This document shows positions 45,509 through 61,612 of a stretch of DNA of 64,000 nucleotides, piece after piece (within the stretch, counting starts at the first letter, position 1; each line of letters opens with the position of its first letter). The position numbers and the translations under genes are program-made. This DNA comes from Paenibacillus zeirhizosphaerae. Lineage in GTDB: Bacteria; Bacillota; Bacilli; Paenibacillales; Paenibacillaceae. The DNA lies in the NCBI RefSeq assembly GCF_030705605.1, contig NZ_JAPCKK010000011.1, positions 186,001-250,000 of the forward strand, in the 5' to 3' direction. The notes under the pieces were generated by a model. The model saw only the letters and a program-made list of their open reading frames with translations, did not search any database and was not told the DNA's origin.

Positions 45509-45988
45509 TCATCTTATCGATATTGCCACGTTCAAACCGACCGCATCTAAAATGTCCTGATGCCTCATTTCTGGAAAATGGTCATACAGTATCAAATTTG
45601 CCACTTCCTGTATTAGTTCCGGACGCTCATCCAGCAAACGAAGTACATCCGGGGTAAATCCGCCGCTGATACCTTCAGACATTAACAATCTGTCTGAAAT
45701 TCCGCTTTTATCCACCGATTTGTTCAACTCCCATAGGCCATCTGTCGATAACCGTACAAAAGGTTCTTCAGGGTGGTAGTATTTTCGTCGCGGACCGAAT
45801 TCTATCAGTAGATTTTTCAGTTTGCTGCGCGTTCCTTCATAAGTCAAACATTTCTCGCCATGCTGGAGCTTAGAGAGAGCGAGCAGCAGCAATAATGGTT
45901 TATGCGGAGCTGTCTGCCCCCTCCTCTTCCATACGTTCAAGTTTGCAATTCGCTCTTTCAATTCTTTTTCGGTTAAATGCACGGTCAT
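45509..45988 (-). CDS. Phosphorothioate-DNA-binding (SBD) domain protein lacking HNH nuclease
   Basis: 159 residues matching the sulfur-binding domain of ScoMcrA-like type IV restriction enzymes, which recognise phosphorothioated DNA. Seen: VWKRRGQTAPHKPLLLLLALSKLQ, LIEFGPRRKYYHPEEPFVRLSTDGLWEL, and the helical end EVANLILYDHFPEMRHQDILDAVGLN. Intact homologues have a following HNH domain of ~120 residues; here translation stops right after the SBD. It could be a decayed nuclease or a retained sulfur reader. ATG 45988 is used; an upstream ATG at 46033 adds residues without similarity. Downstream of a perfect 26-bp palindrome. Confidence 0.75.
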   Translation of the reverse strand: MTVHLTEKELKERIANLNVWKRRGQTAPHKPLLLLLALSKLQHGEKCLTYEGTRSKLKNLLIEFGPRRKYYHPEEPFVRLSTDGLWELNKSVDKSGISDRLLMSEGISGGFTPDVLRLLDERPELIQEVANLILYDHFPEMRHQDILDAVGLNVAISIR

Positions 45989-46040
45989 CACCCAGACCGA
46001 ATATATCAAACCCATCCAGTAGAAAACATGCACAAAAAAA

Positions 46041-46066
46041 TAACTTGAACCTATAGGTTCAAGTTA
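46041..46066. promoter_or_regulatory. Perfect 26-bp palindrome: terminator and/or XRE operator
   Basis: The two half-sites TAACTTGAACCTA / TAGGTTCAAGTTA are perfectly complementary. On the minus strand it is followed by seven T, so it can terminate the upstream defence transcripts. Its core AACC-TATA-GGTTCAA is shared with sites at the island's divergent promoter (60079-60095, 60162-60178), so it may also bind the XRE regulator. Confidence 0.65.
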
Positions 46067-46082
46067 CATACGCTCAGTACCG

Positions 46083-46487
46083 CTAACGATTAGCGCGCCA
46101 ATAATAGACTTTCCCACCCTCACATACGGCGATATCGGCATAGTTTAGCGGCTCGGCCGTTTCCCGATCCACGAAGCCCGTAACCTGGTAAGGATTATAG
46201 TACGCCTCACGCAATTGCAATTGCGATAGACTATCTATGTCTTGCTCGTATTTCCCTTTCACAAAAGCGTGCACGTTCTTCTTCCGCTCGCGCAGTACGC
46301 GCATTCTTCCGGAAGAAGAAACAGGGAACCGCACATCGCGAACAATGATCCGGTCCGTGTAGCCTGCCACTTTACGAGTTGTGGCAAGCCGCACCGAGAA
46401 ACATCGCTTGTGCAAATGGAACGCAATCAATACTAACTGACCATCCTCTACAACAAATCGTTCCGCCGCTCTCCGCATAAGCTTCAT
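46083..46487 (-). CDS. Unknown protein in defence island
   Basis: 134 residues, basic and rich in Arg, Val and Tyr: VEDGQLVLIAFHLHKRCFSVRLATTRKVAGYTDRIIVRDVRFPVSSSGRMRVLRERKKNVHAFVKGKYEQ, then QLREAYYNPYQVTGFVDRETAEPLNYADIAVCEGGKVYYWRANR. Beta-rich, no membrane segment. Start 46487 or, three codons on, 46478 (MRRAAERF). It has its own promoter-like TATAGT near 46505, 77 bp after the PP-loop gene. No family recognised; position suggests a part in the defence system or a passenger. Confidence 0.65.
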   Translation of the reverse strand: MKLMRRAAERFVVEDGQLVLIAFHLHKRCFSVRLATTRKVAGYTDRIIVRDVRFPVSSSGRMRVLRERKKNVHAFVKGKYEQDIDSLSQLQLREAYYNPYQVTGFVDRETAEPLNYADIAVCEGGKVYYWRANR

Positions 46488-46564: not shown

Positions 46565-47365
46565 TTATATCGCGCAGACGCAAGGCACCGTATCATCCGC
46601 TTGCCTCAAATAATGCTCAATGCCTTCTCTCTCCAAAGTTTCGCGGTATTCCCTCAATGTATAAGGGCCTCCGTTACGCTTCAGAATCGTGACATCCTTA
46701 TCAAAATGACGCCTGAACTCTTCTTCCATCTCTTCCTGTTCCCTGTAAACATCCGGCCAAGTGCGGTACAAGTGGGCGTAATGCTGGAATCCGCCTCTGA
46801 CACATCTGCCCCCGCAATTGGCATGCGAGAAACCTAACTCATACATGATAGGCAACCGAATGCCCCATTGTTCCTCTATAATTCGTTTGGCATCCATTTC
46901 CTCCCGGAACGTCGAAATGAGCGGAAATCTCGTTTCGACCGGTTCAAGCGGAACATGGGCGTAGAACTCTTTCAGATTGACCGCGCGATGCTGCTCGTGC
47001 CGACCAATGCCAAAATACAAGATAGGCTCGAGTCCGTGTTCACTTCTCAGTTCTTCTAGGAAGATAACGGTGTGCCTGACTTTCAGTTCCTCGGAACACT
47101 TGGCCAGCCGCGAATTCCCCATGAATCTATAATCGTAGAAGACTTGCTCCGGTGTTCTGCCGTCGGTGCGGTAAGTAATGTCCATACCCAAGTAATCGGC
47201 GACTTCATGCATGAATCGATAATTGTCTTCATGCTCCCATAACGTGTTCGTAAAGAACAAGATGCTGTTTTCTCTTCCATATGTCTGCACCATATGATGG
47301 GCGACGTAAGCGGAAGAAGCACCTCCGCTGTACATAGCGACATGAACCGGTTTGCGCGTCGTCAT
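46565..47365 (-). CDS. Compact PAPS-reductase / PP-loop ATP pyrophosphatase family protein
   Basis: 266 residues. The N-terminal VHVAMYSGGASSAYVAHHMV (SGGASS at 13-18) is the PP-loop of adenine nucleotide alpha-hydrolases such as PAPS reductase and DndC; ILFFTNTLWEHEDNYRF follows the family fold. Cysteines at about 90, 184, 188, 262 and 264 (KCSEE, NCGGRCVRGG, PCVCAI) could hold an iron-sulfur cluster or relay sulfur. Much shorter than DndC (~500). RBS GGAGAGGAG. Last gene of the dpt-like operon, 34 bp after the ATPase gene. Probable sulfur or adenylation chemistry on DNA (inference). Confidence 0.78.
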   Translation of the reverse strand: MTTRKPVHVAMYSGGASSAYVAHHMVQTYGRENSILFFTNTLWEHEDNYRFMHEVADYLGMDITYRTDGRTPEQVFYDYRFMGNSRLAKCSEELKVRHTVIFLEELRSEHGLEPILYFGIGRHEQHRAVNLKEFYAHVPLEPVETRFPLISTFREEMDAKRIIEEQWGIRLPIMYELGFSHANCGGRCVRGGFQHYAHLYRTWPDVYREQEEMEEEFRRHFDKDVTILKRNGGPYTLREYRETLEREGIEHYLRQADDTVPCVCAI

Positions 47366-47399
47366 CGTATAGCTCCTCTCCTCTATCTCATTAAATCTG

Positions 47400-50300
47400 T
47401 TACAATTCGTAGATCAGTTTGGCCAGCAGCTGTTTGATTTCTTGCGTTGAAACGTCTCTCCCGGCGTATTTCAACATATTTTTTACGTTGATATAGAGCG
47501 TTTGCGTTTTTTTCGATAAGGGTTGGTTCACATCGACGGTCATATCAACGACAGCGGCCACCTCACTGCCCGCCCTGAACAGCTCCCACTCATATTTGAC
47601 TTGGCTCAGGAAAAGCTCTTGTGTCGAATCCGACCAGTCCGCTCGCGCGACCCCTACGAGATGCTCCGCCATTCGATCGATGATCCCCGTCAGATCCTCC
47701 GTTACCGGCAGCGTCATCAGCTTGCTATTCTTCTCGATTGCTTCTTCGCGGCTCTGATTGAAGATTTCGAAGAAGCGTACGAAAGAGTGCTGTCCTGTTA
47801 AGGCCAATATGCGCTGCGCCAGCTCCCGTTCGTTATGCTGCATGAAATGTTCCATTTCTTCCTTGGCTTCCGCCAGCGAATCCAGATCTATGACAAGCTC
47901 CTTCATGTAGGTATAAGGGTCCACCTCTGTTGACCTGATCCGATCGCGAATTCGAAGCGTCTCAGGTGAAAGCTGCTGCGAAATTTGTGCAAACTTCGGC
48001 AACTGCCGGAGCCATTGCAACAGCGATTCGGACGCTTGAATGAAGCTGTTGCATGCTTCGTCAGGAAGCTCCAATCGCCTGCCCGCTTCCAGCAACTGAT
48101 TGCGTTCTTCAACAGACCAGTCGTAATACCGATATTCGAACGAATCGGCCAGCTCGACCATTTCCAGAATAGAGACACCGCTCAAATGCGAGATCATCAT
48201 ATCATGCGAATAGAACAGCAGTTGCTCCCACCGATCTCTGAGTAAGGCAACGAACAGAAGCGGTACGACCGATGACCGGATGCCGTAAGGCGCCTCTCGC
48301 ATCATCCCGATAAGCTCGGACAACTTCCCGATCGGCTTCCGATACAATTGCTGCATCAACCCTTGCCGGATGGCTTCAAGCGTTCCGTTGCAATTCACGA
48401 CTCCGTCCCTATCGATGTGGTAGTCGTTATTTTTCAAAGTCGTCGCGTAGATCAAATAGTTCGGGCCGTGGCCGTCAATGCCAAGTGCAGGCTCCGACGG
48501 ATCCTGGATCAGGCGATCAATAACATCTGTGACCGCCCGTCGCTGGATCGCAGAAATCCGGTTCCGGTTGAACGCTTCATTGCGAATAACCGGAGTATGA
48601 GGATATTTATGCAGCAGCCGATCACTGAGTCTTCGCTCCAGAACGTGCAAGTCTCTCACCATCACCCGTTCCGTCCCCGAGCGCCATTCCAGCTTGGCAA
48701 ACTCAAAATATCGGTCGACAAAAGCCTGAATCATCAGGCTTGTTTCTTCCTGTATGAACAGAAGCTCGTTCTTCAACCGGGAATCTAACGCCAACAGCAC
48801 CGTATCATTCAGCAAGTGTTCCGTTATTTTAAATTTCAGCACATAGGGAAGCACTGTTTCCATTGAAAAGGAGGGAAATGCAACCAAGAAGGATCGGCCC
48901 AACTCTTGCATAACAGCATCCGGATCGTCTTTCCGATCCTGATCTTCATAGGCCACGAACCAGATTCGATCATCGCCCGGCCATTCTTTTTCTTGGGAAG
49001 CTTTCATCTCCGCAATATCTGCAAATCGGATATCCGCGTAACGAAGCATATCCATTTCGTCGTTGTAATCATAAGGAAGAATAAACGATAACGGCAGATG
49101 GCGCTCCAGAATATCCATCCCCTCGCGGGTTGTGAGTGAGGATGAAGTCAGCTTCTCTGCAATCAGATCCTCTATATTGATCGAGCTTCCGTTAAATAGC
49201 TCCCATTGCCCTCTCACGCTGTTGTATCGAACGATCTTAGCCTCGACCAACCGGTTCAGTTCGTTCTCGACTGCAACGTCTTCGATGCCAAGCGCAAATG
49301 CGAGGAATGGAATCGTAACGGGTTGTTTCTGAGTCAGCCTGGTTTCGGCCCACATGGTCAGCAGTTCCACAATACGCTTCTGCATCAGGCTTTCGCCATC
49401 TATGTAAGGTATTACGGCATGATAAAGCTCCAAAGCCGATTGTTCCTTAATGTCTGCCGTGTCCAATCGAAAAAAACGAAACAGTCGATCAGCATAGTAA
49501 TAACCGTCATGCTGCTGTATATGCTCGCGTAGGCTGTCGCGCTCGTGATCGGACAGAAACGAGTACAACGTACGCTCGTTTTGCCCATAAATATTGGAAA
49601 GCTGCGGCAGTAACATGACCGCAACCGGATGAACCGGATACAGTGTTGTGAGCAACCCTTGCTCCAACTGATAGGAAGTAAAATCGCCAAACAAAGGGAA
49701 GCCTCTTAACGAATCCGCTGTCTCAAAATCGGCTGTCCCCCCCAAGTTGGCCCCATTAATGTCGCGCAGCGCTTCTTGCGCCAGATGCAAGTAGGTCCCG
49801 GCATCGTTCTCTAGCGTATAATGGCGGAAGCGTCCCTCGATCTTTTCAAATTCCAATCTTATGGATTCCCGGCTATTGGTGGCGTATTGCCGAATATGCT
49901 TATGACTGACTAATAGCAGATGTACATTATTCGCCCGATCGGCAAACTCGGCGAGCGCTTGCAGATCCCGCATATTAGGGGTTGAATTCACGTCATCAAG
50001 CGTCTGCAGGAACCAGCCGAACTCATCATAAACAATGAACAGCCCCAGCTGCCTCGCTTCCAGTTCCTTGGACACCGACTCAAGCTCTTCAATGAAGGAA
50101 GCCTCATGATTATATGACCATGACGTACCGGCCGTCACGCTTGGATAGAAATTGATAAATTGCTGTGTCAGTTCCTCATGGCATGCTTCGATCTGCTTGC
50201 GCCATTCCGCTTCTTCAATCGGTCTCTCCTGCAAAAAATGCAAAAATGCGTTGTACGCTTCCGAGTATGACTGCTTCCAACGATCCACTGTACTGAGTAT

Positions 50301-50738
50301 CGCTAACGCTTCATTCGGCGTGACGATGTGAAGACCCGCTTGATGCAGAGCGCGATGGATAGCTTGATTGATGATCTTGGATATATTTCCGGTCTTCCCG
50401 CTAATTAATACCGGTATATAGGTGACTGGACTCCCATTCATGCGGCGAAGCATGTGCGCCAACTGTGTGTCAATTCGCTCCGCTTGACCTTGCAGATTCA
50501 TGCTCCACTCATGCGAGAATTGACGCGACAATAACTGGCAGATGATTGTGGATACGAGAGATTTGCCTGTCCCGTAAGGTCCGATCAATAAGTGTGAATG
50601 CTTGTCTCCTTGCCCGGACACTCCCTCCAGAACTCCGTTTAACACTTTGCTATGGGATAGCGTCAGCACATACCGATCCAGCAAGTGCGGGTCGGGCAAG
50701 TCGAATTGCATATGGATGCTGGAACGATATTTTTTCAT
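47400..50738 (-). CDS. Large P-loop ATPase (BrxC/PglY-like) of defence island
   Basis: 1112 residues. Walker A LIGPYGTGKS at 51-60 and a Walker B-like LFIVYDEFGWFLQ at 233-245 give an AAA/STAND-type ATPase, followed by LLLVSHKHIRQYA (sensor-like) and a long helical region with winged-helix-like parts (TIPFLAFALGIEDVAVENELNRLVEAKIV). Size and motifs recall BrxC/PglY of BREX, but no pglZ, pglX or brxL is near. The ATG at 50738 shares one base with the DUF4007 stop (TGATG), so translation is coupled. Probably powers DNA scanning or assembly of the modification complex. Confidence 0.75.
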   Translation of the reverse strand: MKKYRSSIHMQFDLPDPHLLDRYVLTLSHSKVLNGVLEGVSGQGDKHSHLLIGPYGTGKSLVSTIICQLLSRQFSHEWSMNLQGQAERIDTQLAHMLRRMNGSPVTYIPVLISGKTGNISKIINQAIHRALHQAGLHIVTPNEALAILSTVDRWKQSYSEAYNAFLHFLQERPIEEAEWRKQIEACHEELTQQFINFYPSVTAGTSWSYNHEASFIEELESVSKELEARQLGLFIVYDEFGWFLQTLDDVNSTPNMRDLQALAEFADRANNVHLLLVSHKHIRQYATNSRESIRLEFEKIEGRFRHYTLENDAGTYLHLAQEALRDINGANLGGTADFETADSLRGFPLFGDFTSYQLEQGLLTTLYPVHPVAVMLLPQLSNIYGQNERTLYSFLSDHERDSLREHIQQHDGYYYADRLFRFFRLDTADIKEQSALELYHAVIPYIDGESLMQKRIVELLTMWAETRLTQKQPVTIPFLAFALGIEDVAVENELNRLVEAKIVRYNSVRGQWELFNGSSINIEDLIAEKLTSSSLTTREGMDILERHLPLSFILPYDYNDEMDMLRYADIRFADIAEMKASQEKEWPGDDRIWFVAYEDQDRKDDPDAVMQELGRSFLVAFPSFSMETVLPYVLKFKITEHLLNDTVLLALDSRLKNELLFIQEETSLMIQAFVDRYFEFAKLEWRSGTERVMVRDLHVLERRLSDRLLHKYPHTPVIRNEAFNRNRISAIQRRAVTDVIDRLIQDPSEPALGIDGHGPNYLIYATTLKNNDYHIDRDGVVNCNGTLEAIRQGLMQQLYRKPIGKLSELIGMMREAPYGIRSSVVPLLFVALLRDRWEQLLFYSHDMMISHLSGVSILEMVELADSFEYRYYDWSVEERNQLLEAGRRLELPDEACNSFIQASESLLQWLRQLPKFAQISQQLSPETLRIRDRIRSTEVDPYTYMKELVIDLDSLAEAKEEMEHFMQHNERELAQRILALTGQHSFVRFFEIFNQSREEAIEKNSKLMTLPVTEDLTGIIDRMAEHLVGVARADWSDSTQELFLSQVKYEWELFRAGSEVAAVVDMTVDVNQPLSKKTQTLYINVKNMLKYAGRDVSTQEIKQLLAKLIYEL

Positions 50739-51613
50739 CAATAGCCCGCCTTCCGCTCATAGGCCTTCTCCAAGAATGCGTATGGATCTTCTGTTTCTAT
50801 GTTCAAGACGTTGAGTTGATTCGTACGGACGAGATTCACAGGATAATCGGAATTTGCCTGGAGCATCTCCATCGCTTCCAGAATGTGATGAGTCGACAAA
50901 TGAAACAGCTTTCCCCACAGTAGTGGTTTGACCAGAATCTCCTCCAGCGTCACACTGTCCACCTGATTAAGCTCACAGTAGCGGAGCAACGCGAAGTACA
51001 GCGCATCAAGCTCCAACTGCAGTCTCTCCGGGGTACGCTTGATGAACTGCTCCTTGGATTCAAGAAGCAAATCCAGCCCCGTTAACGGACTGGTTACAAT
51101 ATCTTCAGGATCGTCATTGTTGCGGGCCCGCGCAGTGTACATTAGCTTAAGGCAGTCCAGATCCCTCTTCAGCGTATGAATGGACACGGGCCGGCTATGA
51201 TGAAGCGAAGCCCAATTAGCTAATGCGGCCAGCATTCCCTCATTGGAAGCGGCTCGCTGATTGAACTCGTTGAAATACCAGTACCAGGCCGGCGCACTTA
51301 CTTTGTTGGAGGCCAGTACGGTATGCAGCGCGGCAGCCGTCAGTGGAAGTCGGGCAAAACGGTCGTGGCGCGATAACAGCTGGCCGAATGGCGTCAATCG
51401 ATGAATCGATTGACGCTGTTCGTTTTTGCCTTCTTCCATAACGGTTGTAGCCACGACCCAATATCGCAGCGACTTAACCATGTTTTTGCCCAGTCCGACT
51501 CTCTCGAACGCGAATTCCTCAAAGAAAAATCTTGGATCTTCCTGCGTCATTTTTATCGCTTTGGACAGCCAATTCACCCGCAAATAAAAACTTTGATGAT
51601 GTCCGAATTTCAT
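50738..51613 (-). CDS. DUF4007 family protein
   Basis: 291 residues, clear DUF4007 start: FGHHQSFYLRVNWLSKAIKMTQEDPRFFFEEFAFERVGLGKNMVKSLRYWVVAT. The rest is helical (LHTVLASNKVSAPAWYWYFNEFNQ). DUF4007 proteins are found in defence loci together with PAPS-reductase-like genes; biochemical role unknown, perhaps a DNA or complex adaptor. ATG 51613 follows AAAGGATG; 32 bp after dptH and overlapping the ATPase start. Confidence 0.85.
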   Translation of the reverse strand: MKFGHHQSFYLRVNWLSKAIKMTQEDPRFFFEEFAFERVGLGKNMVKSLRYWVVATTVMEEGKNEQRQSIHRLTPFGQLLSRHDRFARLPLTAAALHTVLASNKVSAPAWYWYFNEFNQRAASNEGMLAALANWASLHHSRPVSIHTLKRDLDCLKLMYTARARNNDDPEDIVTSPLTGLDLLLESKEQFIKRTPERLQLELDALYFALLRYCELNQVDSVTLEEILVKPLLWGKLFHLSTHHILEAMEMLQANSDYPVNLVRTNQLNVLNIETEDPYAFLEKAYERKAGY

Positions 51614-51645
51614 GATGCGAGTTCATCCTTTCAACCACTTTGCAG

Positions 51646-54600
51646 CTATTCCTGCTTCGTAAAATACTGTATGAGTGCGCGTTTGACGCGAGGTATCAGA
51701 AACGGACTCTTCGCTCGCACGGTTTCCGGCAGATCCAGCTTGATCAGAAAATCCCCCTTGCCGCCAAGCGTCTCGGCGCCTTCCTCATTGATGATAATTT
51801 TGGAGGCATGGTGGTCCGCCGCCTTCAAAGCCAACCGGGCCGGCAGATTATTGCGAATATTCGTCGGCACAATATCTGCCTTCGGATTTTGCGTACAGAT
51901 AAGTAAATGAATACCAGCCGCCCGCGCTTTTGCTCCAAGACGCAATATAGAGCTTTCCACCCTGTCGCTCAAGCTCTTCTCCCGCTCCATGAAATCTGCG
52001 AATTCGTCGAAGACGACAACAAGACGCGGAAGCGGCGAACCGGTTGCCTCTACAAACTCGTCGATGCTCATTACGCCTTCGCGTGCAAACAACGAATATC
52101 GCTGCTCCATTTCCTCTACCAATTGCTCGAGTACGATGATCGCTTCCTCAATCTCGGTTATAACCTGCTTCGTATGGGTGCGGTTTTCATAAATCATAAA
52201 CTCGACCTTCTTCGGATCAATGAACAGAAATTGCACCTCGGACGGCTCGTATAGGCACATCATAGCCAATATAATCGAGTTGATCGTGACGCTTTTGCCA
52301 CTCCCCGTCGTTCCGCCTACCAAGAGATGCGGCGTGTTGGAGCTGGAGAAGTCTAGCACGATGAGTTCACGCACCTGCCCGACGCCTATCGGCGCAATCA
52401 GCTTGCCCTTCAGCTTCTCCAGCGGGTACTGCGCCCGTGTTATCTCCATGAAATCTTCGAAGTAAACCGTTTCCGGCTCCTCTCGATTAATGTCGATATT
52501 GATTCTGCCTTTGCGAAGCGCGATAAACGGCACGGAAGGCAGCTGCAGCCACAGGCAAATATCCTTGGCTTTGTTTTCGATGCTGCTATATGACTTATCC
52601 ACCGGAATTTCGACGACAAGACGAATGACGCTGACGCCGATGAACGCGTCTACGACCTTAATCGGTATTCCGATTTGACTGAAATTAAACCGCAGCTTCT
52701 TCTGATAGCTCTCTACCAGTGGCAGCATGTCCTCAGTGCTATTCGATTGTTCCCTCGCTTCGTCGGCAAGAGCTATCTGCTCGGGATAAGCCTTATCCAC
52801 GTTACCATAAGCTGCAGTTGTGCCCGCAACTTGAGCCAACGTCTCCTCAATTTCACGATGCGCCGCTGCCGCTTCCGAATGATCCGGCACCGGAGTTTCC
52901 ACTTCTACCCTCGCATCATTTCTGGAAATGACGGCAACATTCATCTCCTCCATCACGTTCTCCAGCGCAGCATCTTCGAATTCCAGCTTGCTCGTAACGA
53001 ATACCGGAAGCTCCTCCAATGCCTCGTAGGAAGGTGTAACATCTTCCTGGGACGCGCCTAGCGCTCTCAAGATATAAGAACGATTATAAATATGGTTCGT
53101 ATATTCGTTATGAAGCCGTTCCATCTGATAGCCGTTCACATGTCCTTCCATAACACTGAGCTCCAGCATATTGGACGTATAAACGAATGTGTCGATTGAG
53201 CCGGACAGCTCCACGTCGATGCAGTCAGTTGGAATCGACTGCAATTCCTTCAGCAGCAATGCGTCCTCCACTGAATATGTGCCATACTCCAGCAAATAAT
53301 AAATCAATTCTTGGCGCCACAACGACGCGCTGGCCGGATGCTCGTTGAATACAAATCGGTTCTGGTACACTTCAAGCCCGGCTTTCACTTGCTTGATGGC
53401 ATCATACCTTTCCGGCTCAAAGATGGTATGTGAAATAAACTTCAGCTCAATGATTTCAAAATGGATATGAATCCGTTCCCCGGTACGCCTTAACGCCATG
53501 CGCACGAGGTCAGGTCTCCGTGAATTGCCTTGAAACCACGGCAGTTCGTCGCAAACAGACCAGACAGTGAGTTCCCCGTCTTGCGCCGCTCTGACCTGTG
53601 TTGCCAGGTAGATCGCCATCATCTCATGAGCAAACTTGCCGGGACCAATTGCGCGCAGTACGACGCCGCCTGAAATATCCTTCACCCGCTCAGTCGCCTG
53701 CACAATGATTTGCGGGTCGATATGGTCGTTCTTGAGCATCAGCGTGTACTTCTGATGCAACCGGTCGTAGTATTCATGATCGGCAAGCTCATTCGCCAGC
53801 TTCCGAATGTATTTCGAAGAAGACAGTATCGTCCGAAAATCCTTGTCATTGCCTGCCTTCGATTTATACTTGATAATCTGGGCTTTGGAGGAAACCTGCC
53901 GCAACAAGGACTTATCCAGATGCCGGTCGATAAAGAGTGACCAATTAAACTGATCGTGCATATAGTTGATCAATTCAGTATCCGACAGCTTCGTAATAGA
54001 GATTACGTTGCGCAGCAAATAATGCTCATCGGGCCGAACCGTCTCATTGTTATGCACGATAAACTGCATCTGATAGAAATACTGCATGACCTTGGGCAAG
54101 CTCTCGCTGATGAAGCTGACCCGTTTCACCGCATCATCCCTCTTGAGCGGCTCCTTATATATGGTGCCGAACCAATTGTCCGAATCCTTGACGCTCACCT
54201 TCTCAAGTCTGTACTGAATATGAGACGTTTGGCCGAAATAATTAATCAGCACCCCAATGTCCGCATCGAGCAAATACTGGGATACGCTCTGCATCATAGC
54301 ATTAATGGAATGCTCGGCGATGACCTGAATTTCTACCCTTGGGAAGCTGTTGTAGCGTTCAGAATGCTGCTCCTCCTGATTCATCCAGCCGTTCAAATGT
54401 TCATGTACAGCAGCACCGTTCGTCTCGCAATGCACGATTGCCTTGACTTTACGCACATCGGTATATCTGAATATCCGGTCTACGGCGCTCGTCACATACT
54501 CCGCATGGGGGCAATACAAGAACACGATGTCCAAGCAATCGCTAGCGTATGGATACACGTCCAGATACGTCTTGACCGTGGTCAGAAATTCCTCGCTGAA

Positions 54601-56724
54601 TGTATCGACAAGCTGCTCCTCGCCGCTGTTCTTGCCGTTCAGCGCAAATATCCCTTCGCCCATCCGTTCCTGCTGTTCGATCAGGAATTGATCCTCAATG
54701 ACAAAATAACGTGGCGAAAGATGCGCTGTTTCTTCCTGCTTCTGCTGCAGATAAGCTTTCATCTCGTCAATAGTTGATGACGTTATTCGCTGTTGTTCTA
54801 CCCAACTGTCCAACTCCCCGCGAATGCGTGAGAGACGCTTAGCATAACTGAGCAGCCGCAGTGGATTAAGAAGTGTCAGTACGCGCGTCTGCGCATGACC
54901 GACCGAATCGCTGATCTTGCAATCGTAACGGTCGATGGCTCCCAGATGGCCGATATATTGAAATACATGCTTCGAAAGGAGTGCCGATTGATGGATTTGG
55001 CTTAGCAGGAGTTCCAGCTTCGCTTCCAGCTCAGCGAAGTCTATGCTGCTCAGTCCTGAATTCAATCCACCCTTAAGTTCACGGGTGTACCAAGCGATAA
55101 ACGCATAGATTTGTACAGCTGCATCTTCAACATGGGAATAGCCCGTCGCCACGTAGCCGCTGACGCGTTCCTTCACTTCCTGCACCACATCCGTCAGCTT
55201 TATTTCGGATCCATAATATTCGCGCACGTAAGGAATATGCCCCGTATCCTGCATATGCTCAATCATACTCGGGAGAGCACCCGTGAACGCCTTGACCAAC
55301 TTGAACTGGCTTTCCAGAACGGCCTTGTTGTGTATAAGCAATTGCAGCTTAAAAGAAAGATCGCCGTCTTTCTCTTGCGCGTCGGAATCCTTGAGCGAGG
55401 ATTCGTCGAATTTGATATACCCCGTTAATTGCTCCAGTTGAAGGAGATGGAAGGATAGCGCCGTTCGCGCGGATTCTTGCACGGGCGAATTCAAATAGAG
55501 CACGAATGCCGCTTCGTTCAAGCCATACTCCTCCTGTTCGGAAGAATATTCTTCTAGCAACTGAATCGACTCTTGCAGCAGAGCATCGCTAAGCTCCGTG
55601 TATTCGGCCAGTTGCCGTTGACGAGAGAGGATGCGCTCCAGATCCTTCTTCAGCTTCGGGTACTCTTGAAGCTCGTCTGTGAACTCATTGATAAATTCCT
55701 GAATTTTGTCAGGCTCGCGGCCATCGTCAATAGCTTCCAGTGCTTCCGTTACGATCTGATCCTTTTCCGGCTTCCAATCATCCTGCCCTTCGAGCACCAT
55801 CCTGAAATCATTAATCTTCTCGTTAATCTTCTGCGCCTTTAGCTTGAAGAACAGCGCCGTGGATATAACATCGAAATCATATTGAAGCAACTCACTCGAT
55901 TGATTATGAATAAATGCCAGCGCCTGCTGGCGAAAAACATCCGGGTGAACCTTATCCCACAGCTCATGCTCGTCCTGCGGAGCAGTCGATTTCTCGATGA
56001 ATGAATACAAATTGTCGATCAGATCATCTTTCTTGACGGTCTTCCCTTCCCGCTCTAGTCTGGATAGCTGGTAGTTCCGTTTCAGTCGCGCATATCCATC
56101 GGCCCCGCGGAAAGACAGCTTGCTGTCACGGAACAGTAGTAGCTGATCCATGTTCTGCTGTATCCTGTCGATCATAGACAGCTGCGGGTCCTGAACGACG
56201 GCAGCCAAGAAGGCGAGCACAGTGCGCAGTTGTGCATCCGCGATCCTGCCGTACATACTTAGAAATTGCTTTAGCGCCTCCAGCTCGTCTCCATAGCACT
56301 TATGTATATCCGCGAAAAGCTGGTACAACACTTCCAACCCTTGCGGGCTTAATAGACGGGCCTCATCAATGGTAAATATGTTTTCCAAGCTTTGCGCTTC
56401 TGGAGACACATCGTTCATAAAGATAAGAAGCGCGCTGCCCGCTGCCGTATTATTGCGAAGCCAAGTGCTGGTTTCATGCTGCTGACACTGATAGGACTCG
56501 AAACCGTTCACCTTGTTCAAAGTACGAATAACAGGTTTGTAGTACGCCAACAACCGATCTTCCGCGTCCCGAAACGACTGCAGCACATCGCCCCATGCCG
56601 CATCGTCAATACCTGTGATTTTGGTAAACAGCTTGTCCCCATTGGCCCTCTGCTGATCCTGGAAATAGCGGATGACAAGCTCGACCATCCACTGGCCCAA
56701 CAATTTTCGTGCGGAGCTATACAT
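51646..56724 (-). CDS. dptH: Phosphorothioation-dependent restriction protein DptH-like
   Basis: 1692 residues, the size known for DptH/DndH, the ATPase-translocase subunit of the DndFGH restriction complex. The N-terminal ~1200 residues are mostly helical and unassigned. The C-terminus is an FtsK/HerA-type motor: HLLVGGTTGSGKSVTINSIILAM (Walker A at about 1471-1478), FLFIDPKKVEF, LVVVFDEFADF (Walker B about 1568), LLICTQNP and TNIRNNLPARLALK. In characterised systems the complex attacks DNA lacking phosphorothioate and depends on dndBCDE for self-marking. ATG 56724 overlaps dptG by 8 bases and follows GGAGG. Confidence 0.82.
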   Translation of the reverse strand: MYSSARKLLGQWMVELVIRYFQDQQRANGDKLFTKITGIDDAAWGDVLQSFRDAEDRLLAYYKPVIRTLNKVNGFESYQCQQHETSTWLRNNTAAGSALLIFMNDVSPEAQSLENIFTIDEARLLSPQGLEVLYQLFADIHKCYGDELEALKQFLSMYGRIADAQLRTVLAFLAAVVQDPQLSMIDRIQQNMDQLLLFRDSKLSFRGADGYARLKRNYQLSRLEREGKTVKKDDLIDNLYSFIEKSTAPQDEHELWDKVHPDVFRQQALAFIHNQSSELLQYDFDVISTALFFKLKAQKINEKINDFRMVLEGQDDWKPEKDQIVTEALEAIDDGREPDKIQEFINEFTDELQEYPKLKKDLERILSRQRQLAEYTELSDALLQESIQLLEEYSSEQEEYGLNEAAFVLYLNSPVQESARTALSFHLLQLEQLTGYIKFDESSLKDSDAQEKDGDLSFKLQLLIHNKAVLESQFKLVKAFTGALPSMIEHMQDTGHIPYVREYYGSEIKLTDVVQEVKERVSGYVATGYSHVEDAAVQIYAFIAWYTRELKGGLNSGLSSIDFAELEAKLELLLSQIHQSALLSKHVFQYIGHLGAIDRYDCKISDSVGHAQTRVLTLLNPLRLLSYAKRLSRIRGELDSWVEQQRITSSTIDEMKAYLQQKQEETAHLSPRYFVIEDQFLIEQQERMGEGIFALNGKNSGEEQLVDTFSEEFLTTVKTYLDVYPYASDCLDIVFLYCPHAEYVTSAVDRIFRYTDVRKVKAIVHCETNGAAVHEHLNGWMNQEEQHSERYNSFPRVEIQVIAEHSINAMMQSVSQYLLDADIGVLINYFGQTSHIQYRLEKVSVKDSDNWFGTIYKEPLKRDDAVKRVSFISESLPKVMQYFYQMQFIVHNNETVRPDEHYLLRNVISITKLSDTELINYMHDQFNWSLFIDRHLDKSLLRQVSSKAQIIKYKSKAGNDKDFRTILSSSKYIRKLANELADHEYYDRLHQKYTLMLKNDHIDPQIIVQATERVKDISGGVVLRAIGPGKFAHEMMAIYLATQVRAAQDGELTVWSVCDELPWFQGNSRRPDLVRMALRRTGERIHIHFEIIELKFISHTIFEPERYDAIKQVKAGLEVYQNRFVFNEHPASASLWRQELIYYLLEYGTYSVEDALLLKELQSIPTDCIDVELSGSIDTFVYTSNMLELSVMEGHVNGYQMERLHNEYTNHIYNRSYILRALGASQEDVTPSYEALEELPVFVTSKLEFEDAALENVMEEMNVAVISRNDARVEVETPVPDHSEAAAAHREIEETLAQVAGTTAAYGNVDKAYPEQIALADEAREQSNSTEDMLPLVESYQKKLRFNFSQIGIPIKVVDAFIGVSVIRLVVEIPVDKSYSSIENKAKDICLWLQLPSVPFIALRKGRINIDINREEPETVYFEDFMEITRAQYPLEKLKGKLIAPIGVGQVRELIVLDFSSSNTPHLLVGGTTGSGKSVTINSIILAMMCLYEPSEVQFLFIDPKKVEFMIYENRTHTKQVITEIEEAIIVLEQLVEEMEQRYSLFAREGVMSIDEFVEATGSPLPRLVVVFDEFADFMEREKSLSDRVESSILRLGAKARAAGIHLLICTQNPKADIVPTNIRNNLPARLALKAADHHASKIIINEEGAETLGGKGDFLIKLDLPETVRAKSPFLIPRVKRALIQYFTKQE

Positions 56725-58309
56725 AGCTTACCTCCATCATGCTAGGCGCGTACGGATTCTGAACCATAGCCGTAGCGTCCGAAAATTCGATAAGCAGCCC
56801 GTTATGACGTAGTTTGTCGCGCAGTGCCTTCTCATTATCGTTAAAGTAGCGAATATTCAGCCTTGATTGCTCATACAAACCCGATTGTCTGGCCTGGCTT
56901 TCCCCAATAACAATTCCGTAGTCCCGGTAAAGCGTCTCAAGAAACTCATAATACTCCATCTTCTCCTTCGGCTTCACTTTCGTGAACACGATCATCTGCA
57001 AGAAGGGGTCCGAAATCGAGTAGCGATAATTGGAAGCCGAACCGCGGCGGTAAGTCGCAAAACCGCCATCTCGAGAGATGACCCGAGTAATGTTCAATTG
57101 ATGCTTCTTCAATTGATCGGAGATCGCTTCGCGAATCAGTGCCTGCAACCGTCCCGTTACGTCGGCAACACTGTTGCACCGTAAGAGTGTGTTTTCAATA
57201 GTCCTCTTCCGGCTGCGCATCAGGTTTAATCCCAGTATGTCAATGAATTGCTCCGGTTCCGCCTTCCATTGCGGTAACTGCTGCTCGATCTCTTCTTCGT
57301 TGCCGAATGTCTGTTGCATTCTCAATTCAAGCTCATGCTCGAACCTAGCTTTGATCAAGTTCTCATGTTGCTCGAAGCTAAGAGACGACAGCCGGGAGAT
57401 CGGCTTATTAGTGCCGTCCAGACAATCAATGAAATAATAATGACGGCCAGGAGTAGTATACGACCTTTCATGCATGTAACGCGCCAATTGGAAGCATACC
57501 AGCGCAGTCAGAAGATGAAACATCTCATAGATATCGAGATCAATGGAGAGAAGACGCTCCAATTCTTCCGCAAAACTTTCAAACAAACGTTCATTTTCCT
57601 GCGGGGCGGACGGCGGCAATACAGGCACATTCTTCTCGCTACTCGAAGCGGACCGCAGTCTGGCTTGATCCGACGAAGCTTCATCCTCATCAAAGGCCGA
57701 CGCAATTTTGTCCACGACCTTCTCAATAATCTTGTTCTTCTTCAACAATTGCTTGAAGCGTGTCTCAATAAACTGACGACGTTCTGTATGCTTGTCGGTA
57801 CCATATGCTAGCATGAGAAAATACAATTCACCGCCGCGGGCATAGAAATTTCGTTCAAAGGACAAGTCCTTCCCCTTCTTACGCAATTCCACATACAGCA
57901 ACGATTCATGCAGAGGATACAAGGATCGGGCAAACCAGGAACGATCCGCCTCTTTTCCCGTCGTGTTATACAATGTAACTTCCAAATTTCGAAGGAATTG
58001 CTTAAGCACATGGATATTGTCCTCTTGGATAGCGCCAAGAAGCTTTGTTTTTTCCTCTTCCTCCAGCACCAAGATACCACTCGAGCCTGAACCTTCCTTC
58101 ACGCCCTCAAAAATAAACTTGCGAAGACCCACCGACTTCTTGCGCCGATAGTAGTCATCACTGAAGCTGTAATTCGCGCCGAACAACACATTAAGAAATT
58201 CCAGCACGTACTCCGGCCCCCGCTGGCCATCCTTAAATCGGTGTCCCCATATATCGGCAGATAGTTGTGACGTAAATTTCGCATTACTTTCCTCTGATGT
58301 CTTCTCCAT
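56717..58309 (-). CDS. dptG: Phosphorothioation-dependent restriction protein DptG-like
   Basis: 530 residues, assigned mainly by position between dptF-like and dptH-like genes and by size. Visible: an N-terminal segment DIWGHRFKDGQRGPEYVLEFLNVLFGANYSF, a charged helical middle (FIETRFKQLLKKNKIIEKVVDKIASAFDEDEASS), a low-complexity linker (SASSSEKNVPVLPPSAPQ, ~225-245), and a C-terminal winged-helix-like end (YYEFLETLYRDYGIVIGESQARQSGL). No nuclease motif seen. The frame opens at 58327, overlapping the dptF stop by one base, but ATG 58309 has GCGGAGG nine bases upstream and is preferred. Confidence 0.7.
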   Translation of the reverse strand: MEKTSEESNAKFTSQLSADIWGHRFKDGQRGPEYVLEFLNVLFGANYSFSDDYYRRKKSVGLRKFIFEGVKEGSGSSGILVLEEEEKTKLLGAIQEDNIHVLKQFLRNLEVTLYNTTGKEADRSWFARSLYPLHESLLYVELRKKGKDLSFERNFYARGGELYFLMLAYGTDKHTERRQFIETRFKQLLKKNKIIEKVVDKIASAFDEDEASSDQARLRSASSSEKNVPVLPPSAPQENERLFESFAEELERLLSIDLDIYEMFHLLTALVCFQLARYMHERSYTTPGRHYYFIDCLDGTNKPISRLSSLSFEQHENLIKARFEHELELRMQQTFGNEEEIEQQLPQWKAEPEQFIDILGLNLMRSRKRTIENTLLRCNSVADVTGRLQALIREAISDQLKKHQLNITRVISRDGGFATYRRGSASNYRYSISDPFLQMIVFTKVKPKEKMEYYEFLETLYRDYGIVIGESQARQSGLYEQSRLNIRYFNDNEKALRDKLRHNGLLIEFSDATAMVQNPYAPSMMEVSYV

Positions 58310-58326
58310 TTGGCGGTACCTCCGCA

Positions 58327-60000
58327 TTAAATATCGATTTCATATGGCGTGTACACGCCTTTGTTCGGATCGATTGCGAATACTTGCAAGCTGAACTCAT
58401 TCAGTTCGCTGCGACTTATCAAATCGTTCTTGAAGGTGCCTAACAAGATGTCAACCTCTTGTCTGAGCGCTATGAACAATCCGCCCCCTGCTAAGCGGAG
58501 CAAATATTCAAATACCGGCAGTTTAACCTCCAGCTTCGTTTCCTGGTTGACGGTTATGTACAATTTGGACGGCAAATAATCGATATCCGAGCGATCTTCG
58601 TCTATCGAAAGCTTCACTTGACTTGCAGAGAAGCTTTCGTGAATAAGAAGATTTTCGTTCACTACAAACAAGTTAGTTTCGCTCCGGCCAATCAGTTTTT
58701 TGGAGAAATTATGGTTGAGCCCTTGGATCAGTTCTTTGCGCACAGAAGCAAGCACCTGCCGATCCTTCAAGCTGTCGAGAAAACGATAGAAATGTAAATA
58801 AGGGATCAGCTTCTCGCGCATACTGCCATCCTGTTCGTCTGTCTCGAAGAAATACTTCCTTCTGAACCTGGACATTTGAACGAAAATCTCCATTGATTCC
58901 TTGCTCCGATCCTGGATACGATGCACCTCGATCATCTTGCGATAATAACCGAACAGCAAGTCGATTTCGTCATCGAATAGCCGTTGATGCTTCTGTATAA
59001 CCTGGACATCGCCACTAATATCCCCGTTCAACAAATAATCGTCGATAGCTGAAATAGACAGCTTGCCGGGATCAAGATGCTTGAAGTAGCGGATCGCACC
59101 TTGCTCTCCCGCGCCGCTCTGGGGCAAATGCACGCCATAAAAATTGTCGTAGTAGGCACGATTAGCATGCTCTTCGATATCTTGATATCCAGCGCTCATC
59201 ACTTGCTCGCAGGTGAGCCCGCCGGTCAACACATAGCTGATATGTATAAGTATTTCGCGCATGGTAACATGGACGCCCAAGCAATCGAGAAGGCGATACT
59301 GCTCAACAAGCCGATTCCGGACCAAGGACTGAGACATTCGCCGATGGTTCAACTGAATCACACAGTTTTTGTTTCGACTACATCTCTCGCAAGCGGTCCA
59401 ATTGTCTTCACGGTTCCATTCTTCCATGATGCGAGACGCGTATATAGATGAAGTGACATCCTGCAAATTGACCAAATGGAGCTGTCTATCATTAGACCTA
59501 TGATTGAGAAATCTATCATTAACGGCCTGGGACAATGGGTAAAGAGCAGGATGTTGAGAGAGGAACTTGGACAGCTTGCCTTCATTGGCGGCGATCAGAT
59601 AATAATGACGACTCACGTGTCCCTTCTCCATCACCTCTTGCAAGCGCTTAAGCTCTTCCAGGATTACTGCATCGGTAAGTTCTGACAAATCCTTCACAAT
59701 CCGAAGCGTGCCCCCGCTGAACGGTACGTCCACAATTCCGCTAATCGGCCATTTCTGCAGTGGCTTCCCCGTTATCTGTTCATATACAGTTCGACATAGG
59801 CGTGTCTTGCCATCGCCGGCATTGCCCGTCATGATCACGCTGCGGGGCGCTTCCTTAAATAAGGACAACAAAAATCGCTCAATGTTGGTATCGATTGCAA
59901 ACCGATATTGATCCGTACTTTGGATATACTCGTCGTATATTTTCGCATGGCTTGGAGAAAGGACGTTAAATTGATCGAGGTATTGAATGAAGGAATTCAT
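58327..60000 (-). CDS. dptF: Phosphorothioation-dependent restriction protein DptF-like ATPase
   Basis: 557 residues. N-terminal P-loop MTGNAGDGKTRLC (GNAGDGKT at 59-66), ILEELKRLQEV and YYLIAANEGKLSKF in the ATPase part, then a cysteine cluster WTACERCSRNKNC (Cys204, 207, 213) that may bind metal. The C-terminal ~250 residues are unassigned. Size and order match DptF, the first subunit of the FGH restriction module. First gene of the minus-strand operon; RBS GGAGG; promoter at 60067-60095 overlapped by the XRE-type operator. Confidence 0.8.
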   Translation of the reverse strand: MNSFIQYLDQFNVLSPSHAKIYDEYIQSTDQYRFAIDTNIERFLLSLFKEAPRSVIMTGNAGDGKTRLCRTVYEQITGKPLQKWPISGIVDVPFSGGTLRIVKDLSELTDAVILEELKRLQEVMEKGHVSRHYYLIAANEGKLSKFLSQHPALYPLSQAVNDRFLNHRSNDRQLHLVNLQDVTSSIYASRIMEEWNREDNWTACERCSRNKNCVIQLNHRRMSQSLVRNRLVEQYRLLDCLGVHVTMREILIHISYVLTGGLTCEQVMSAGYQDIEEHANRAYYDNFYGVHLPQSGAGEQGAIRYFKHLDPGKLSISAIDDYLLNGDISGDVQVIQKHQRLFDDEIDLLFGYYRKMIEVHRIQDRSKESMEIFVQMSRFRRKYFFETDEQDGSMREKLIPYLHFYRFLDSLKDRQVLASVRKELIQGLNHNFSKKLIGRSETNLFVVNENLLIHESFSASQVKLSIDEDRSDIDYLPSKLYITVNQETKLEVKLPVFEYLLRLAGGGLFIALRQEVDILLGTFKNDLISRSELNEFSLQVFAIDPNKGVYTPYEIDI

Positions 60001-60066: not shown

Positions 60067-60095
60067 AGCATACCACTTTTAACCAATAGGTTCAA
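60067..60095 (-). promoter_or_regulatory. Promoter of the dpt-like operon with overlapping operator
   Basis: Minus-strand TTGAAC (60090-60095), 17-bp spacer, TATGCT (60067-60072). The dyad AACC-AATA-GGTT (60081-60092, within TTAACCAATAGGTTCAA) covers the -35 and part of the spacer, so a bound regulator would repress. Confidence 0.65.
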
Positions 60096-60160: not shown

Positions 60161-60178
60161 TTTAACTAATAGGTTCAG
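60161..60178. promoter_or_regulatory. Second XRE-type operator half-palindrome
   Basis: TTTAACTAATAGGTTCAG matches the site at 60078-60095 at 15 of 18 positions, same orientation, 83 bp apart. It lies upstream of the XRE gene and suggests autoregulation. Confidence 0.55.
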
Positions 60179-60241
60179 TTTGATCTTGCATTCATGTTAT
60201 CTCTGAATTGCGGTTGCTATATTTTTAATTGGGTGATGATC

Positions 60242-60574
60242 TTGAGCTTTGACTATGGAATTATTGGGAATCGTATCAAAAAATCGCGAGAGAAAAAGGG
60301 GTTAACTCAAGAAATGTTGGCCGAGGAATTGGATGTGTCCAATGCTTATATCAGCAAAATCGAAAGAGGAAAAACGCAAATCAGCCTGGATCGCTTATCC
60401 GAGCTGTGTTACGTTCTTGAGGAATCGACAGAATATATATTGAACGGTTCGGACAGCACATCGGATGACTATCTCCGGAATGAAATTATGGTCATGCTGG
60501 AGGGTTGCTCTGCGGAGAAAGTGAAACTCATTTCGCAGGTGATTAAACCTATTGTCGAGTATCGGGAGAAGTAG
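60242..60574 (+). CDS. XRE family regulator of the defence island
   Basis: About 110 residues: IIGNRIKKSREKKGLTQEMLAEELDVSNAYISKIERGKTQISLDRLSELCYVLEESTEYIL, a typical Cro/CI-type helix-turn-helix, with a short C-terminal helical tail for dimerisation. It resembles control (C) proteins of restriction systems in size, orientation and position: divergent from the restriction operon, with repeated dyads between. Start uncertain: TTG 60242 (SFDYGIIG) lies just after GGGTGATG; ATG 60236 and 60194 are in frame. Confidence 0.85.
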   Translation: MSFDYGIIGNRIKKSREKKGLTQEMLAEELDVSNAYISKIERGKTQISLDRLSELCYVLEESTEYILNGSDSTSDDYLRNEIMVMLEGCSAEKVKLISQVIKPIVEYREK

Positions 60575-61518: not shown

Positions 61519-61612
61519 AATCATCCCTCCCTCGCCTCCATTGTACAGAAATATGTACACATTGTACACTGTGTAGTATATTCATCTGTGTTCCCAATCA
61601 TACCTGCAACGC

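Follow-up and report, generated by a model that had tools for sequence, protein, structure and literature searches.

A stretch of 64,000 nucleotides from Paenibacillus zeirhizosphaerae (contig NZ_JAPCKK010000011.1, positions 186,001 to 250,000; hereafter the window) very probably carries an SspBCD-SspFGH phosphorothioate (PT) restriction-modification system that belongs to an XRE/palindrome regulon with a PT reader and that is accompanied by a small protein of the Phage_L5_gp82 family. Judged by sequence, the core of the locus is the published SspBCD-SspFGH PT defence. Three additions to this core look new and are absent from the literature searched: a seventh gene of a phage family, a shared palindrome, and the presence of this palindrome in front of a gene for a sulfur-binding domain (SBD) or SBD-HNH protein. 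SspB, SspC, and SspD, together with a cysteine desulfurase encoded elsewhere in the genome, would place sulfur on one strand of the host DNA, and SspF, SspG, and SspH would attack unmarked DNA, as others have shown for Vibrio and as homology suggests here. The XRE protein would bind the palindrome, which overlaps the sspF promoter and is also encountered before the XRE gene itself and before the gene behind the operon. The latter gene would code for a PT-reading SBD, to which the reader seems reduced in this genome, and for SBD-HNH proteins in two sister loci. The small basic protein encoded after sspD most likely works with the PT machinery or tempers it.

Table 1. Features of the Ssp island, numbered from the first position of the window.
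Feature	Position	Strand	Description
SBD-only gene	45509..46033	-	174-aa ORF; probable start 45988; HNH half absent
Terminator-like hairpin	46040..46067	-	12 pairs, then T run; contains site 3; fold z -3.9
Operator-like site 3	46045..46062	.	TTGAACCTATAGGTTCAA, perfect palindrome; precedes SBD gene
Seventh operon gene	46083..46487	-	Basic 134-aa protein, Phage_L5_gp82 family (PF25735, phrog_586)
sspD	46565..47365	-	266 aa; PP-loop (PAPS reductase-like) putative sulfurtransferase; PADLOC SspD E 3e-12; Pfam PAPS_reduct E 1e-5
sspC	47400..50741	-	1113 aa from TTG; ATPase of PT-writing complex, Walker A GPYGTGKS; PADLOC SspC E 3e-102
sspB (DUF4007)	50738..51613	-	291 aa; subunit of PT-writing complex; Pfam DUF4007 E 1e-62; PADLOC SspB E 2e-51
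sspH	51646..56724	-	1692 aa; large subunit; PADLOC SspH E 9e-102
sspG	56717..58327	-	536 aa; subunit of restriction module; PADLOC SspG E 4e-108
sspF	58327..60000	-	557 aa; P-loop ATPase of restriction module, Walker A GNAGDGKT; PADLOC SspF E 1e-191
Operator-like site 2	60078..60095	.	2 mismatches; at sspF promoter
Operator-like site 1	60161..60178	.	4 mismatches; precedes XRE gene
XRE regulator	60194..60574	+	Divergent from sspF; Pfam HTH_3 E 2e-16; probable start near 60239

The six genes from sspF to sspD overlap or nearly touch, as an earlier note on this DNA had described: sspF and sspG share 1 nt, sspG and sspH 8 nt, and sspB and sspC 4 nt, with gaps of 32 nt between sspH and sspB and of 34 nt between sspC and sspD. 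For six of six operon proteins the best PADLOC match is an Ssp model (Table 1), and the names dptF, dptG, and dptH, proposed earlier for the first three genes, have to be given up: no Dnd or Dpt model appears at E <= 0.01 for the operon proteins in the output of PADLOC or NCBIfam, libraries which we take to include such models, and similarity to DptF/G/H is in effect absent. SspH ends in an FtsK/SpoIIIE translocase domain (Pfam FtsK_SpoIIIE, E 2e-41, residues 1436-1614), and no PDB sequence matched SspG at E <= 0.1. The DUF4007 assignment of the fourth gene holds, and a profile built from eight relatives of its product finds the solved SspB structures 6juf/6lb9 (E 3e-19); in published systems SspB is a nickase. 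The fifth protein, previously regarded as BrxC-like, is indeed an ATPase that matches BrxC (E 2e-28), but the SspC models of PADLOC fit it far better (E 3e-102). The sixth is PAPS reductase-like as proposed, and its identity is 84-94% in six of the seven other close loci and 72% in the remaining one. The SspD score itself is modest (PADLOC E 3e-12) and counts against our preferred explanation.

The survey for the same gene order that had been suggested identifies the identical six genes in identical order in 11 other Paenibacillus-group loci, and because of this recurrence the order is not due to chance. A three-gene restriction module is joined to a three-gene marking module other than DndBCDE, as anticipated in the earlier note, and the marking proteins are homologs of BREX type 4 parts. 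In the genome, which is 94.2% complete, neither DndC (TIGR03183) nor DndB (TIGR03233) is matched, although no control genome exceeded either cut-off, so that the sensitivity of these models is unproven; the search for a Dnd set elsewhere in the genome covered these two proteins. SspE was searched for with one model (PDLC02785), which is unmatched in the genome. Six Aminotran_5 (class-V aminotransferase) matches, a family wider than the cysteine desulfurases, are encoded elsewhere in the genome, none of them adjoining the operon.

The range 46565-60000 considered previously omits the seventh gene, the SBD gene, the XRE gene, and the three operator-like sites. The XRE protein has a restriction "control protein" (E 4e-12) among the 25 PADLOC matches listed, and its HTH match, together with palindromic sites in front of its own gene and of sspF, makes binding at these places a prediction. 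The left half of site 2, TTGAAC, could act as the -35 element of sspF, 17 nt from TATGCT; this putative promoter falls below the threshold of the promoter scan and is unlisted there. With 13 promoter-like matches in the region against 19.6 in shuffles, and 13 terminator-like matches against 13.5, the counts are not above shuffles and the scan alone therefore lends no support. The palindrome is located at the sspF promoter in six of six XRE-bearing loci and in none of the six XRE-lacking ones (Fisher p 0.002), a comparison of loci from related species that amounts to fewer than 12 independent events. Its end lies 77-81 bp before sspF in five of the six XRE loci and 19 bp from the longer ORF start in L071. 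By chance, 0.02 occurrences would be expected per 64 kb at <=3 mismatches. The palindrome also precedes the SBD or SBD-HNH gene in three loci, the window and two sisters; the SBD-HNH gene of L071 has no site directly in front, and no site at <=4 mismatches is present in the loci of 20 genes that exceed the cut-off of the NCBIfam model NF045808 and are not beside Ssp genes. Since the palindromes are shared, PT writer, restrictor, and PT reader would constitute one regulon, with the sites located by sequence and binding and control predicted from them.

The SBD-only protein aligns with positions 1-155 of the 284 positions of NF045808 (E 7e-45; 153 bits, under the cut-off of 180 bits). By its modeled fold (AlphaFold2, pLDDT 85) it is a complete sulfur-binding domain, superimposing on ScoMcrA (5zmo_A) with Z 18.3 and rmsd 2.4 over 149 aligned residues and on 7ccd_A with Z 17.8 and rmsd 3.2 over 157, while rows other than SBDs reach at most Z 9.0. 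Within the pocket, H44, K45, and P91 are present, and the Tyr and Ala positions are occupied by Glu and Arg, respectively. According to one study, His and Pro are the most conserved pocket residues, Lys is usual in place of Arg, and Tyr is poorly conserved (PMC6224610). In another, changing the pocket Tyr of SprMcrA to Ala nearly eliminates binding, which speaks against a functional window pocket with Glu (PMC7470945). A pocket special to Ssp-linked SBDs was considered and rejected: among the 14 rows that cover the site (one gene entered twice; 15 rows kept, many over-cut-off loci dropped), 13 show Glu/Gln-Pro and L036 shows Tyr-Pro, whether Ssp-linked or not.

Full-length SBD-HNH genes adjoin Ssp genes in three sister loci, in two of them behind the palindrome, and the reader gene of the window has lost its nuclease half and retains just the sulfur-binding domain. 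It is rather probable that this gene is a decaying SBD-HNH pseudogene and site 3 a relic, given that the codons after an in-frame TGA read RRDP, which in the relatives introduces the HNH domain, that no HNH similarity is detectable downstream of the TGA as far as 44400 (best tblastn E 1.1), and that within the order further NF045808 genes are likewise broken or partial. Against decay, several elements are intact: the open frame, the complete SBD fold, H44/K45/P91, the palindrome, and an upstream element common to the sister loci. Moreover, tight PT-DNA binding by itself might restrict, as proposed in PMC7461809. That article is the sole one among the matches listed that combines SBD-HNH with an Ssp term; its relevant passages set SspE beside SBD-HNH enzymes and mention no linked genes.

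The product of the seventh gene exceeds the Pfam cut-off of its family clearly (E 1e-24; 86.8 versus 27 bits) and matches phrog_586 with E 3e-28; no paper naming PF25735, phrog_586, or Phage_L5_gp82 was encountered in the literature searched. In all 12 related loci of the Paenibacillus group its gene comes after sspD. A GTDB scan shows the gene to be missing from 18 of the 23 remaining loci that bear SspF, and therefore it is not essential for PT writing. In a tree of 107 rows and 145 columns, with many unresolved forks and long branches, the Ssp-linked copies require three changes, two of them forced by supported branches, and Ssp loci have likely acquired the gene more than once. Comparison of the predicted fold with the PDB yields no match at E <= 0.001 and, in a second look, at most Z 2.1, from which neither novelty of the fold nor any function follows. 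JSS1_004, known as a phage antagonist of DndFGH, was considered as a relative and discarded, as it is a T7 gp0.7-like kinase of another family.

Most likely, judging by its gene neighborhoods, the gp82-like protein cooperates with the PT machinery or tempers it, and two forms of such a role can be envisaged. It is possible, though we hold it with some doubt, that the protein acts as a brake on PT restriction, or as an immunity factor against it, and also serves phages and plasmids as an anti-restriction protein. Matches to the family occur in 680 of 50,697 phage records; the copy of phage Mater resides within the terminal repeat, and an ocr-like anti-restriction gene lies at a distance of 1.2 kb; one plasmid copy adjoins ArdA; and large phage proteins of several domains (Zeta toxin, ART-PolyVal, PcfJ-like) are among the structure matches. 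This argument is built on gene neighborhoods, however, and the gene is also found in the SspBCD locus L086 without SspFGH nearby, likewise in L106, where the contig starts about 4 kb upstream, and beside one Dnd operon, DndFGH being outside that look.

Alternatively, the protein might tentatively be seen as an accessory of the PP-loop sulfurtransferase that assists in writing or placing the PT mark. In 14 of 16 genomes with a gp82-like gene, a PAPS-reductase, DndC- or SspD-type gene is situated within 10 kb (P ~3e-22 for the 12 genomes detected via PF01507 alone and P 5e-9 for five of eight non-Ssp genomes, both calculated as if the genomes were independent, which is not the case). None of 80 viral loci, the best 80 of at least 584 relatives, has a PAPS-reductase gene in its flanks (3 kb; up to 10 kb), so that the link is restricted to bacterial copies; this, as well as the absence from most other SspF-bearing loci, argues against an accessory. 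Among plasmids, 13 of 34 matching records were examined, one of them without annotation in the stretch. In the 12 annotated records, a PAPS reductase is adjacent in one and about 4.5 kb off in another, DndB lies some 4 kb from the copy in one, ArdA is adjacent in one, a type I R-M system adjoins in one (a Variovorax plasmid), one copy is near a cluster of methylase, nuclease, and helicase, and for six no such link to defence or PT was noted.

Defence genes cluster in genomes, and the gp82-like and SBD genes could be ordinary passengers of a defence island with no functional tie to Ssp, a reading that agrees with the Variovorax copy and with the variable contents of the neighboring slots. We consider it unlikely in view of the constant position behind sspD within the Paenibacillus group, the recurrence beside Dnd, and the palindrome common to the operon and the SBD gene. 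The slots adjoining the gp82-like gene in L067 and L073 hold genes unrelated to defence. Finally, the earlier note favored a novel hybrid that combines Dnd/Dpt restriction with BREX-4-like marking. The homology of SspBCD to BREX-4 parts, the weak BrxC matches, and the similar layout of FGH modules, with a Walker A motif in F and an FtsK-like C-terminus for H, might speak for it. This hybrid is rejected as highly improbable because of the HMM evidence and because a 2021 paper already describes the SspBCD-SspFGH pairing (PMC8092258), and neither PglZ nor BrxL occurs among the ten island proteins scanned.

Returning to the SspBCD-SspFGH system with its regulon and companion, one may speculate further, with low expectation of being right, that the Ssp island of the Paenibacillus group is a switch-controlled, two-sided PT surveillance in which SspBCD would write, SspFGH would hit unmarked DNA, SBD-HNH would hit PT in another context or density, and the gp82-like family would set or shield PT self/non-self and act as a phage and plasmid counter-measure; the window would then have dropped the nuclease and kept a bare reader. 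A PT-dependent nuclease is expected to endanger a PT-writing host, and in the survey reported in PMC7461809, dnd clusters lie immediately near SBD-HNH genes in <3.6% of cases. The full SBD-HNH genes that adjoin Ssp here, two of which follow the palindrome and one of which does not, therefore make self-protection in PT systems testable. New partners are wanted as well, since 2,211 of 2,678 sspBCD loci have neither SspE nor SspFGH, according to PMC8092258. The gp82-like family connects phage records, numbering in the hundreds, with PT systems; it offers a small candidate brake, helper, or anti-defence factor.

The closest known systems include the SspBCD-SspFGH pair from Vibrio anguillarum FF-93, for which PMC8092258 reports single-stranded PT at CPSCA and damage to DNA that lacks the mark, with sspFGH accompanying sspBCD in 196 of 2,678 strains and in 36 more together with sspE. 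The same six gene families are adjacent in FF-93, a separate cysteine desulfurase is allowed, and Walker A of SspF and the FtsK-like C-terminus of SspH are in common. In the window, FGH is followed by BCD on one strand with the genes nearly touching, and they are accompanied by the phage-family gene, the XRE gene with its palindromes, and the SBD gene behind a palindrome. DndABCDE-DndFGH (DptFGH) follows the same logic, in which a sulfur mark signifies self and FGH, with an ATPase motif in F and a translocase-like H, attacks unmarked DNA; the genome of the window, in contrast, has no DndB or DndC match, and SspFGH and DndFGH have no significant sequence identity according to PMC8092258. BREX type 4 possesses a homologous PAPS reductase, a BrxC-type ATPase, and DUF4007, whereas the scanned island proteins of the window include SspFGH instead of PglZ and BrxL. 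With the SBD-HNH endonucleases SprMcrA, EcoWI, Bsp305I, and ScoMcrA, the window protein shares the complete SBD fold but differs in lacking HNH and in the replaced pocket residues, and the sister genes differ in being placed beside a PT writer, in two of the three cases behind the palindrome. The C (controller) proteins of type II R-M systems are small XRE proteins with palindromic sites before their own and partner genes. The XRE protein of the window is likewise small, with predicted sites in front of both its own gene and the partner genes, but it would control a PT system together with a PT reader.

The six-gene run proposed by the earlier note at positions 46565-60000 is borne out, neighboring genes overlapping or being separated by gaps of at most 34 nt, and these core six genes are an already known system, Ssp. 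The solved structure of SspB (6juf/6lb9) is also matched by a profile built from SspB relatives. The names dptF, dptG, and dptH have to be abandoned, since the Ssp models match instead and no Dnd or Dpt model of PADLOC or NCBIfam matches an island protein at E ≤ 0.01. The reading of the sspC product as a BrxC-like ATPase holds in so far as a BrxC model matches (E 2e-28), but this match is weaker than that of SspC (E 3e-102, PADLOC); the BREX-4-like impression arose because SspBCD is homologous to parts of BREX-4, according to PMC12839542. The absence of dnd marking genes is supported for dndC and dndB, whose models match nothing in the genome (94% complete), and profile search of this genome with one SspE model is negative as well.

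Features of the Ssp island and its flanks (positions within the window)
Feature	Position	Strand	Evidence
sspF	within 46565-60000	-	PADLOC SspF E 1e-191
sspG	within 46565-60000	-	PADLOC SspG E 4e-108
sspH	within 46565-60000	-	PADLOC SspH E 9e-102; C-terminal FtsK/SpoIIIE, Pfam E 2e-41
sspB	within 46565-60000	-	PADLOC SspB E 2e-51; Pfam DUF4007 E 1e-62
sspC	within 46565-60000	-	PADLOC SspC E 3e-102
sspD	within 46565-60000	-	PADLOC SspD E 3e-12; Pfam PAPS reductase E 1e-5
gp82-like gene	46083-46487	-	Phage_L5_gp82 (PF25735), 134 aa
SBD ORF	45509-46033		NF045808 positions 1-155 of 284, E 7e-45, 153 bits
XRE gene	60194-60574	+	
Palindromic sites	60161-60178, 60078-60095, 46045-46062		
PHD_like antitoxin-family gene	61102-61569	-	Pfam E 4e-31
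Small ORF	44586-44846	-	repeated GRKGGEA-type motifs
ORF beyond the small ORF	43068-44444		

Judged from its genes, the window operon fits the published SspBCD-SspFGH system. In that work (Wang and others 2021, PMC8092258), IscS-SspBCD together with SspFGH protected E. coli against four of five phages tested, SspFGH alone harmed cells lacking phosphorothioate (PT), DndFGH and SspFGH share no significant identity, and IscS can stand in as cysteine desulfurase. No cysteine desulfurase was found inside the window operon, and the rest of the genome has six matches to class-V aminotransferases.

SspF relatives occur in 16 of 392 genomes from the same order as the window, eight being close (E < 1e-190, the window's genome included) and eight distant (25-29% identity). 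The close loci have FGH followed by BCD, and all eight distant ones have BCD upstream of FGH. With SspB as query, a scan of GTDB genomes yielded 115 relatives; the top 80 were retained as loci. After merging of the sets and removal of repeats, the window's gene order is found in 12 Paenibacillus-group loci (the window, L066, L048, L067, L068, L069, L070, L050, L071, L072, L073, and L076); the named ones belong to Paenibacillus or Thermobacillus, and L071, L072, and L076 represent a different family of the same order in the genome set. In other loci (L093, L099, L100, L106, L107, L109, L110, and L112) sspD lies on the strand opposite to sspBC.

A seventh gene, encoding a gp82-like protein, is situated downstream of sspD in 12/12 Paenibacillus-group loci; in L067 its distance from sspD is about 4.6 kb, an insertion lying in front of it. 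Among the best 80 of the 115 SspB loci, it accompanies 14 of 32 with SspF above 30% identity (9/9 in the Paenibacillus group, 5/23 in others) and none of the ten with the distant FGH type; L086 and L106 combine it with SspBCD, no SspF above 30% identity being in view. Order-wide, 14 of 392 genomes carry the gene, including 8/8 with close SspF versus 6 of the remaining 384 (Fisher p 2e-13). Nineteen Ssp-linked copies of this basic protein have net charges from +3 to +13. Its predicted structure (pLDDT 85) has no clear counterpart in the PDB but matches predicted proteins of phages, including large multi-domain ones. Matches exist in 680 of 50,697 phage records and 34 of 72,556 plasmid records. 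The terminal repeat of Bacillus phage Mater carries the gene at a distance of 1.2 kb from an anti-restriction gene resembling ocr (L167:1094-3175), and the gp82-like product is a candidate anti-defense protein. On a Variovorax plasmid (L266:6548-14375), the gene and a divergent HTH gene are directly 5' of a type I R-M operon (MTase, S subunit, and R subunit).

Neighborhoods outside Ssp also link the gene to PT chemistry. A non-Ssp gp82-like copy from genome G339 (L248), 81% identical to an Ssp-linked copy, is located 1.2 kb from a Dnd operon (L248:5969-8607) encoding DndB (E 3e-122), a PAPS-reductase protein, and an SMC-like ATPase. Pieces of a Mutator transposase and a PLD-helicase-DUF3427 gene adjoin this operon and the gp82-like gene. 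Across 16 genomes with gp82-like genes (14 from the order-wide set, 2 more from a class-wide scan), a PF01507 match lies within 10 kb in 12; BLAST alone detects an SspD neighbor in G180 and a DndC-like one in G228, and in G148 and G078 such a gene is on the same contig at 25 kb and 112 kb, respectively. Chance would yield 0.14 of 16, a figure assuming independent genomes, which is untrue of the eight Ssp operons. No PAPS-reductase gene is found beside viral copies (0/80, the best 80 of at least 584 viral relatives, flanks up to 10 kb). In G558 (L258:8224-14407) genes for ThiF, a DndC-like PAPS-reductase protein (654 aa), a C5 DNA methylase, and DUF4062 come after the gp82-like gene, in what may be a further cluster for sulfur-based modification of DNA. 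Of all parts of the Ssp system, the gp82-like protein has the least certain role, the candidates being brake, helper, and passenger.

The window's SBD ORF (45509-46033) matches part of NF045808, a family of PT-DNA-binding restriction endonucleases (SBD-HNH), below the 180-bit cut-off as a half protein should; it stops at TGA, RRDP comes next, and then similarity is gone entirely. Its model (pLDDT 85) superposes 149 residues on the sulfur-binding domain (SBD) of ScoMcrA (Z 18.3) and resembles that of SprMcrA (Z 17.8). In the predicted pocket His, Lys, and Pro are kept, Tyr is replaced by Glu, and Ala by Arg. PMC6224610 describes His and Pro as most conserved and Tyr as poorly conserved; against this low weight on Tyr counts that SprMcrA nearly lost binding on Tyr-to-Ala exchange, as stated in PMC7470945. 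In P. radicis (L068), P. paeoniae (L070), and P. thalictri (L071), a full-length SBD-HNH gene adjoins the Ssp genes. Order-wide, 22 of 392 genomes have an over-cut-off gene, two of them beside Ssp (G353 and G203); in G368 it is about 240 kb from Ssp, and the G180 protein in this slot matches the HNH half only (E 5e-14).

Other occupants of the slot, among ten genes following sspD or the gp82-like gene, are helicase or PLD-helicase proteins of type IV or PbeA kinds (L069, L072, L074, and L079), McrB-like AAA proteins (L080 and L096), HNH_2 (L076), a transposase (L083), and genes without a tie to defense, for mannosidase (L067) and PPDK (L073). On the window's flanks, the PHD_like gene lies beyond the XRE gene, and the small ORF between the island and ORF 43068-44444 presumably resembles a KGG-repeat stress protein.

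A repeated palindrome occupies the gap between sspF and the divergent XRE regulator gene, and the gp82-like and SBD genes have a perfect copy between them; scanning the window at up to three mismatches gives two sites versus 0.02 expected. All six loci that carry this XRE (L067-L071 and the window) have a site 5' of sspF; the distance from its end to the start is 77-81 bp in five of them and 19 bp in L071, where the ORF start is longer. Such a site at sspF is seen in 0/6 loci where no such XRE occurs in the stretch examined. The left half of the sspF site, TTGAAC, is 17 nt upstream of a -10-like hexamer in 6/6 XRE loci, and therefore the regulator would contact the sspF promoter itself; a consensus promoter scan does not list the window's weak sspF hexamers. 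In 5/6 XRE loci a second site lies 3-49 bp 3' of the gp82-like gene and 5' of the next gene, which encodes SBD (window), SBD-HNH (L068 and L070), or XRE (L067 and L069). L050 has one four-mismatch site, 3.3 kb from sspF; 15 other FGH loci have none at up to three mismatches. When four are allowed, just two of the 22 over-cut-off SBD-HNH loci have one, and these are the two that adjoin Ssp. Because the window site after the gp82-like gene also forms a hairpin with a T run, it may serve both as operon terminator and as binding site of the regulator.

By homology, SspBCD would write the PT mark and SspFGH would attack DNA lacking it. SBD-HNH would cut PT DNA in contexts not used by the host, or at a density it never reaches, which would permit coexistence with a PT writer. 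Three features appear to be new, none being found in the literature searched, which leaves out most subscription-journal papers: the association of a gp82-like gene with PT systems, the putative operator of Ssp, and the proposed joint regulation of PT writer and reader. The genes for XRE and SBD share palindromes with sspF, and the XRE protein might time or limit expression of the Ssp system together with the PT reader. C proteins time or limit the expression of R-M systems, and the role proposed for XRE would be similar to theirs.
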